NCBI GenBank assembly: GCA_021324595.1
Contig: JAJPIV010000122.1
Coordinates: 1-64,000 of the forward strand
Origin: Actinomycetota bacterium
GTDB taxonomy: Bacteria; Actinomycetota; Actinomycetes; Streptosporangiales; Streptosporangiaceae
Length of the DNA: 64,000 nt
Reading direction: 5' to 3'
The notes under the pieces are model-generated. The model saw only the letters and a program-made list of their open reading frames with translations, made no database searches and was not told the origin of the DNA. Positions within the stretch are counted from its first letter, which is position 1. Every line of letters starts with the position of its first letter. Shown one piece after another: positions 2,715-3,952 of this stretch. A program made the position numbers and the translations under genes.

Positions 2715-2742
2715 TTGACATATCATGCGCGCTAACTATAGT
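2715..2742 (+). promoter_or_regulatory. Consensus -35/-10 promoter before the helical-protein gene
   Basis: TTGACA at 2715-2720 and TATAGT at 2737-2742 are separated by 16 bp, close to the housekeeping sigma-factor consensus and strikingly AT-rich for this genome. It reads towards the gene starting at 2770, leaving a short leader with a strong ribosome binding site (GAGGAGG). The -10 box sits inside a perfect palindrome (see next entry). Confidence 0.8.
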
Positions 2743-2746
2743 TAGC
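2731..2746. promoter_or_regulatory. Perfect 16-bp palindrome, probable operator
   Basis: GCTAACTATAGTTAGC is its own reverse complement over all 16 bases and overlaps the -10 hexamer. A dimeric regulator bound here would block RNA polymerase. The XRE protein encoded at 3506-3952 in the same transcription unit is the most economical candidate; that assignment is inference. Confidence 0.7.
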
Positions 2747-2769
2747 AAGTGAGATCGAGGAGGATTTCC

Positions 2770-3432
2770 ATGACCAGCACCCGCGTGCCCGGGCAGCACT
2801 TCCAGGAGCAGATCCTGGCCGCCGCCCGCAAGGGGCACCAGAAGATGACCAGCACGGCGCGCTCCGTCGCCGCTACCGCGCGGACGATCCGTCCCCAGCT
2901 GCCGGAGCTTTCAGAGCACTCCCAGGCCCGGCTGCGCGCGGCCCTGGCCGCGCCCGCCAAGCTGCGGACGGCCCTCCCCAAGGCCGAGCGGATCCGCACC
3001 GCCCTCCCCAAGGCCGAGCAGCTCAGGCAGATGGCGCGCGAGGCCATGAAGCGGTCTCCTGGCGCCGGGGAGCTGCGCGCGCGGGCGACCGAGGCGGCCA
3101 GGCATGCCCGTGCCGCAGGGAGGGCGCTGGACGACCAGGTCCGCGCCGCCGGCGCCCCGCTGGCCCGGCAGGCGCGCACCGCCCTCTCCCAGGCCGGCGC
3201 GGCACTGGCCCAGGCCGGCGTCAGGAGCGGGCGGAACGCCCCGGCCCCCCGGCAGGAGGCGCCGCCCGAGGCCGCCGGCGACCGCGGCGTGCCTGCCCCG
3301 GATGCCGGCGGCACCGCGGGCGCCGGGCCCGTCGCGCGACCGCATGGCGCGAAGCGGGCCGGGCGGGCCCACGGCGCTTCGCGCAATGCCGACCAGGCCA
3401 AGACGGCAGGGAATACGGGCCCGGCGAAGTAG
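2770..3432 (+). CDS. Ala/Lys-rich helical protein, phasin/HbhA/lipid-droplet-protein-like
   Basis: A 220-residue protein without a signal peptide or membrane span. Residues ~1-150 are predicted by eye to be long amphipathic helices rich in Ala, Arg, Lys, Gln and Leu, with a duplicated segment (RTALPKAE twice near residues 65-85). The last ~70 residues are a Pro/Gly/Ala-rich, basic, probably disordered tail. I see no catalytic motif. Composition, a helical body with a basic tail, and pairing with an XRE regulator recall granule or lipid-droplet coat proteins of actinobacteria (HbhA of mycobacteria, MLDS of Rhodococcus, phasins); this is an analogy, not a demonstrated homology. The ATG at 2770 is chosen because GAGGAGG lies 9 nt upstream; an in-frame GTG at 2749 lacks such a site. 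Driven by the palindromic promoter upstream. Confidence 0.7.
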   Translation: MTSTRVPGQHFQEQILAAARKGHQKMTSTARSVAATARTIRPQLPELSEHSQARLRAALAAPAKLRTALPKAERIRTALPKAEQLRQMAREAMKRSPGAGELRARATEAARHARAAGRALDDQVRAAGAPLARQARTALSQAGAALAQAGVRSGRNAPAPRQEAPPEAAGDRGVPAPDAGGTAGAGPVARPHGAKRAGRAHGASRNADQAKTAGNTGPAK

Positions 3433-3505
3433 CCGCCAGACCCGGGGCCCCACCTCCCGGGGTGGCGGCCGCCGGGCCGGACGGCCAGGACGAGATGGGA
3501 GCAGC

Positions 3506-3952
3506 GTGAACGAGCCGTGGGACGCGGAGATGGAGGCTCTGGGTGAGTTCATCCGCAGGCAACGCAAGCTGGCGAACTTGTCGCTGCGCCAGCTCGCCGA
3601 GCGGGCCAGGTTGTCCAACCCCTACCTGAGCCAGCTTGAGCGCGGCCTGCACCAGCCGTCGGTGCGAGTCATCAAGCGAATCTCCGAGGCGCTCAACGTG
3701 TCCGCGGAGACCTTGCTCGCGCACGCCGGGCTGCTCCGGCACGAGGACCAGGGCGGGCGGGGCAGTGCGCCTGGCGCCGACACCACCCCCGGCCAGGGCA
3801 CCGCGCGCGGCCCGGGCACGCCACCCGGCCAGGGTGCCCCGCCCGGCGCGGCGCCCTCCGTCGAGGAGGCGATTCGCGCGGACGCGCGCCTGAGCGACCC
3901 GCAGAAGGCGGCGCTGATCGCGGTCTACGCCAGCATGCTCGGCGCGGGCTGA
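3506..3952 (+). CDS. XRE-family transcriptional regulator
   Basis: A 148-residue protein with an N-terminal helix-turn-helix of the XRE/Cro class at about residues 12-66 (LGEFIRRQRKLANLSLRQ, then SNPYLSQLERGLHQPS and SEALNVSAETLLAHAGLL). The C-terminal half is a Pro/Gly/Thr-rich linker followed by a short helix (EEAIRADARLSDPQKAALIA). GTG start with GGGAG just upstream. It follows the helical-protein gene on the same strand by 73 bp, and its likely role is autoregulation of that pair through the palindrome at 2731-2746 (inference from position). Actinobacterial XRE proteins of this type are known beside HbhA/MLDS-like genes. Confidence 0.85.
   Translation: MNEPWDAEMEALGEFIRRQRKLANLSLRQLAERARLSNPYLSQLERGLHQPSVRVIKRISEALNVSAETLLAHAGLLRHEDQGGRGSAPGADTTPGQGTARGPGTPPGQGAPPGAAPSVEEAIRADARLSDPQKAALIAVYASMLGAG

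Follow-up and report, generated by a model that had tools for sequence, protein, structure and literature searches.

A phasin-like gene and an XRE regulator behind a conserved palindromic promoter: a probable storage-inclusion module in Actinomycetota

What does a gene pair encoding a helical protein and an XRE-type regulator do behind a promoter that carries a palindrome? The pair lies in a stretch of 64,000 nucleotides from an actinobacterium of the Streptosporangiaceae, which we refer to in full as the window. On the forward strand a -35 box TTGACA (2715-2720) and, after a 16-bp spacer, a -10 box TATAGT (2737-2742) can be read directly from the sequence, as can the ribosome-binding site AGGAGG (2758-2763) of the first gene. 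This gene (2770-3432, forward strand, ATG start) encodes a protein of 220 aa that we assign to a phasin-like coat family from an hhalign family match and an AlphaFold2 model. It is followed at 73 bp, on the same strand, by a gene with a GTG start (3506-3952) for a 148 aa XRE protein (HTH_3/HTH_31; Pfam HTH_3 E = 7e-15), the putative autoregulator. The candidate operator is the perfect 16-bp palindrome GCTAACTATAGTTAGC (2731-2746, no strand assigned), which is an instance of the motif GCTWRNTAWAGTWWGC and overlaps the -10 box. An earlier note on this DNA had described the promoter with its overlapping AT-rich palindrome and the regulator 73 bp past the helical gene; all of this is borne out. 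Codon-position GC at the locus is typical of coding sequence. Directly upstream (749-2592) lies a NarL-type pair, a DUF7134 histidine kinase and a LuxR-type response regulator; the response regulator is kept there in L035, L036, L037 and L044, and the kinase in three loci.

Length is a poor guide to the significance of the palindrome. Ten perfect 16-bp palindromes are present in the window against ∼ 6.6 expected at its 76% GC, and an argument from rarity by length alone was dropped. The palindrome at 2731-2746 is the sole AT-rich one among the ten. No second match to it at ≤3 mismatches occurs in the 64-kb window (shuffles give an expectation of 0), and a TTGACA-N15-18-TANNNT arrangement is found once only in the window, both strands being scanned. 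The motif as defined in the clade is found once in the 4.09-Mb genome of the strain, at the window site. The real evidence is this uniqueness in the genome together with conservation in relatives. The broad box pattern matches the genome at one further place (C121:17707), which lies inside or borders on ORFs next to a 5-formyl-THF-cyclo-ligase-like gene (annotated by eye); no link to an XRE gene was seen and we take it as chance. Because the motif is single-copy, the regulon of the window XRE in its own strain is probably the pair's operon alone.

Conservation was assessed by searching the XRE protein against 41 whole genomes, which gave two groups: clade A, with close relatives from its own genus and from some of the family, and clade B, which is widespread at ∼ 50% identity. 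Scanning named genomes added 68 loci, some of which lie in genomes already searched. At clade-A loci the promoter and motif recur, in phase, 5' of a helical ORF, and most orthologues have a TTGACA/TTGGCA-like -35 box at the same spacing. The motif precedes phasin-like genes in 58/61 related upstream regions (matrix score >10), and the refuting outcome named in the earlier note, a palindrome not conserved in relatives that keep the pair, did not come about. The 680 kb of flanks of related loci hold 97 sites (score >13), of which 63 precede phasin-like genes, 17 phaC and 8 XRE genes; since the phasin-like upstream regions served to train the matrix, independence from training holds only for the counts at phaC, at XRE and in the background. 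A single site lies 5' of a phasin-like gene and of an XRE gene alike, and several of the ∼ 10 others belong to helical genes whose starts are misplaced. Between its two halves the palindrome shows no covariation beyond column composition (33 distinct sites; 117/500 shuffles as high), which means that dyad symmetry in the relatives is imperfect. A compensatory change between the halves (GCTAAC/GTTAGC vs GCAAAC/GTTTGC), suggested at first, was ruled out by this 33-site count. Copies of the box also occur in tandem, overlapping or adjacent at a spacing of 10 or 16 bp (L046:648-673, L053:5480-5511, L030:1366-1391), an arrangement that may permit cooperative binding. At L061:4546-4640 and similar Acidimicrobiia loci the motif of the phasin-like promoter leaves just 3 bases to the ATG, a sign that the phasin-like gene there may be transcribed without a leader.

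The helical protein had been described as amphipathic and Lys/Ala-rich. Alanine is indeed abundant (25.9%), but lysine (4.1%) is outnumbered by arginine (13.2%), and the protein (pI 11.9) is better called Ala/Arg-rich. The most amphipathic segment lies at residues 108-125 (moment 0.70); 4.7% of shuffles do as well or better, so amphipathicity by itself is modest evidence. AlphaFold2 predicts helices only, at low confidence (pLDDT 56), at residues 7-46, 49-67 and 99-154, with a disordered tail from ∼ 155; the resulting layout is two long helices, a variable middle and a disordered basic tail. Two long helices are also predicted for the phasin-like protein of Trebonia kvetii (pLDDT 75), and a short-form phasin-like protein found no structural match in the PDB. 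The coat protein encoded at L035:4886-5908 contains repeated LPNAEHLAQLTDKQVAQLREKAP units, and the length of this middle repeat varies strongly among close relatives.

Family membership was established by comparing alignments. The alignment of the window protein and its nearest orthologues (A3) matches that of a PhaC-linked phasin-like family defined in this analysis (A4) with an hhalign value of 98.5% (E = 2.3e-15), collinear over both helices, the window type carrying an insertion between them. Alone, the window protein matches the short-phasin profile weakly (E = 0.047). A profile built from ten of the helical proteins recovers nearly all the others, at sites adjoining XRE or phaC. As judged from these profiles, the XRE-adjacent helical proteins make up a single phasin-like family with two helices, and the window protein is among its members. 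The commonest Pfam match in the family is Phasin_2, seen in 8/42 members with a best E of 0.0008, and no member passes the Phasin_2 (PF09361) cut-off; the window protein itself matches neither PF09361 nor the TIGR01841 and TIGR01985 profiles. The profile search against phasin and HbhA families that the earlier note had proposed has therefore a divided outcome: the protein belongs to a phasin-like family, but it does not reach curated phasin cut-offs and shows no profile homology to HbhA (see below).

Linkage to a PHA synthase, a criterion for phasins, is seen in relatives, and no PhaC is encoded at the window locus itself. PhaC lies ≤6 kb from a clade-A XRE in 32/68 loci from several Actinomycetota lineages, although these loci were retrieved through XRE similarity, with near-identical Acidimicrobiia MAGs among them, so that the 32 are not independent events. 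Among the 41 genomes PhaC is found in 7/12 with clade A vs 2/29 others (P = 0.001, kinship ignored). The Acidimicrobiia order is phaC, phasin-like gene, 3-hydroxyacyl-CoA dehydrogenase and XRE; these genes occupy L061:2767-5976, and their spacing there recurs in many Acidimicrobiia loci. At L006:21-1010 and L055:5044-5463, ORFs that by eye are thiolase-like and short-chain-dehydrogenase-like adjoin the phasin-XRE pair, where genes for PHA precursors would be expected.

The earlier note had likened the locus to the MLDS/MLDSR pair of Rhodococcus and the HbhA locus of mycobacteria. For the regulator and its box the likeness holds. Clade A, with the window XRE, and clade B, with the regulators of HbhA loci, are sister clades whose split has 100/100 support, and they share the PYLSQ.ERGL core of the recognition region. 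The window XRE falls outside clade B, to which we assign Rv0474 and MLDSR by locus architecture (L030, L119; Nocardiaceae for MLDSR) rather than by sequence comparison. The published MLDSR box, GNT(T/A)GCTNNTGCTANC (PMC5504291), is fitted by the window palindrome at 13/16 positions, which 0.05% of random 16-mers of equal composition achieve, and clade-B loci have GCTTGCAnnWGYTAGC-like boxes 5' of the XRE gene. For the coat and the gene order the likeness fails. At clade-B loci, for example in Nocardia farcinica and Nonomuraea gerenzanensis, the XRE gene comes first, then an HbhA-type basic helical gene, then DUF2516. Against the HbhA-type alignment (A5, which includes an HbhA-type protein) hhalign gives 15.8% for A3 and 0.6% for A4; there is no homology by profile, and HbhA/MLDS membership of the coat protein was ruled out on these values. 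The tail of the window protein is Arg/Ala/Gly-rich, without PAKKA repeats.

The two coat types also avoid each other. A strong HbhA-type match is present in 21/41 genomes and clade A in 12/41, and the phasin-like (clade-A) and HbhA-type coats are almost mutually exclusive among the 41 (P = 2e-5 with G021 taken as lacking the HbhA type, 3e-4 with it counted; kinship ignored in both). Only G021 appears to have both, its HbhA-type match being weak but correctly placed; G017 has a borderline match, which is not at that place and was taken as chance. Of 11 clade-A genomes that keep a clade-B XRE, 10 no longer have the HbhA-type gene between XRE and DUF2516, whereas related genomes without clade A retain it and nearly always the box. 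In the window's own strain (L103:2637-3350, G000:C129) DUF2516 directly follows the clade-B XRE gene, the HbhA-type gene and the box being gone.

We conclude from these comparisons that the pair is quite probably a storage-inclusion module, in which a gene for a phasin-type granule coat is paired with an XRE autoregulator that acts through the palindrome. The core of what the earlier note had proposed, a granule coat protein with its autoregulator, is thus well supported by the motif, the PhaC linkage and the family, but its identification of the coat with the HbhA/MLDS type is not. The coat protein would localize to a storage inclusion, sitting on the granule surface via two amphipathic helices, and an XRE dimer would bind the palindrome at 2731-2746, cover the -10 box and block the promoter of both genes. 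Granule formation would draw coat protein and regulator onto the surface; free regulator would fall, the promoter would open, and coat supply would follow granule surface. Titration of a regulator by the inclusion has been published for MLDSR (PMC5504291) and PhaR (PMC11332829, PMC5658603), and by analogy the window XRE may be sequestered in the same way. Its nearly invariant C-terminal helix region, EEAI.AD..L...QK.ALI.VY.SML, is a candidate granule-binding element, after the two helices through which MLDSR targets droplets (PMC5504291).

Each of the known systems resembles the locus in part. MLDSR of Rhodococcus jostii RHA1, a paralogous regulator, binds a similar 16-bp box and is retained on lipid droplets (PMC5504291); its operon likewise combines an XRE gene, a gene for a helical basic inclusion coat and a 16-bp palindromic box overlapping the promoter/operator, but the regulator comes first and the coat second, and the coat belongs to the HbhA family, for which profiles show no homology to the window protein. 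Mycobacterial Rv0474-HbhA (PMC10884836, PMC6176652) has a sister-clade XRE beside a basic, helical protein linked with lipid inclusions and a similar 16-bp box 5' of XRE (L030), yet its order is XRE-HbhA-DUF2516, with DUF2516 after the coat gene as in other HbhA-type loci, and HbhA is not homologous to the window protein; Rv0474 has been described as copper-responsive (PMC10884836, PMC6176652). In proteobacterial PhaP/PhaR (PMC5658603, PMC11332829) a phasin gene tied to PHA synthesis is under an autoregulated repressor titrated by granules, whereas the window regulator is an XRE protein and Pfam phasin models match weakly. H16_B1672, XRE-type by description, represses phaP1 in R. eutropha (Ralstonia). 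The GA14 phasin of Rhodococcus ruber is a small actinobacterial protein comparable in size to the short relatives; no regulator of it is mentioned in the part of PMC5658603 that deals with it.

The most serious competing idea concerns the kind of inclusion: the coat may no longer serve PHA and instead, with its helical middle lengthened and a basic tail, have been re-used as an MLDS/HbhA-like coat of triacylglycerol/wax-ester droplets, perhaps tethering DNA. In the strain's genome (97% complete) neither PhaC_N nor a class III synthase was matched, but there is a WS/DGAT match (4.9e-48), WS/DGAT being present in 5/5 genomes of the genus, so the granule in this strain may have ceased to be PHA, with lipid droplets as the obvious alternative inclusion. 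The coat proteins of the window's subclade (13 rows, support 100/99) are longer and end in a basic tail of K/A/P or R/A type, and the absence of HbhA-type coats from clade-A genomes leaves the lipid-droplet niche free. However, PhaC is present in 6/13 subclade genomes (own genome among the 7/13 without it), which ruled out a strict split in which a long coat means no PhaC; the window protein lacks PAKKA repeats; and WS/DGAT is so widespread across the whole genome set that its presence is weak evidence. We regard this re-use as possible, though not as the leading reading. Doubt about the sign of regulation is smaller. The XRE may activate, or do both, with the palindrome a conserved strong promoter and regulator binding secondary: the motif contains the -10 box (T7, A8, (T9) and A10 near-invariant), and the effect of MLDSR is positive when the protein/DNA ratio is low and negative when it is high (PMC5504291). 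Yet G1, C2, G15 and C16, outside the -10 box, are nearly invariant as well, although a promoter alone needs none of them, and overlap with the -10 box suits a repressor. Activation is accordingly unlikely, and we infer that the XRE represses.

A role away from granules altogether, as a nucleoid-associated or surface-exposed basic protein, would suit the pI and the disordered basic tail, and HbhA is also an adhesin (PMC6176652); it sits badly with membership of the phasin-like family, the PhaC linkage and the lack of homology to HbhA, and we consider it rather improbable. Least credible of all is an unrelated toxin-antitoxin-like or phage-derived XRE beside a chance helical ORF. Small XRE proteins are common in such systems, and the window XRE weakly matches phage and antitoxin repressor models, far below cut-offs. 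But that reading is contradicted by motif conservation (58/61), by the partner family (hhalign 98.5%) and by the CbiX and MDMPI neighbours conserved at the locus in 12 subclade relatives, and coding-typical codon-position GC also speaks against a chance ORF.

The storage-inclusion module may belong to a larger system. We propose, as a tentative extension that we think less likely than not, an undescribed Actinomycetota granule regulon in which an XRE sister to MLDSR/Rv0474 controls phasin-like genes, phaC and itself via one box, excludes an HbhA/MLDS coat from the same genome and, in the window's PhaC-lacking lineage, has handed its coat to lipid droplets. In a literature search that covered few subscription papers, no account of actinobacterial phasins under an XRE regulator came to light, and a 2021 review of PHA regulation mentions neither "actinobacteria", Streptomyces nor XRE and names Rhodococcus only as a producer. 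How granule coat supply is matched to polymer in actinobacteria is barely described, and the locus offers a named box, regulator and coat family for testing. PHA granules and neutral-lipid droplets would be linked through one ancestral regulator family, and phasin-like and HbhA-type coat systems are predicted to replace each other. A named strain, Trebonia kvetii 15TR583, has two such loci, L053 and L054.
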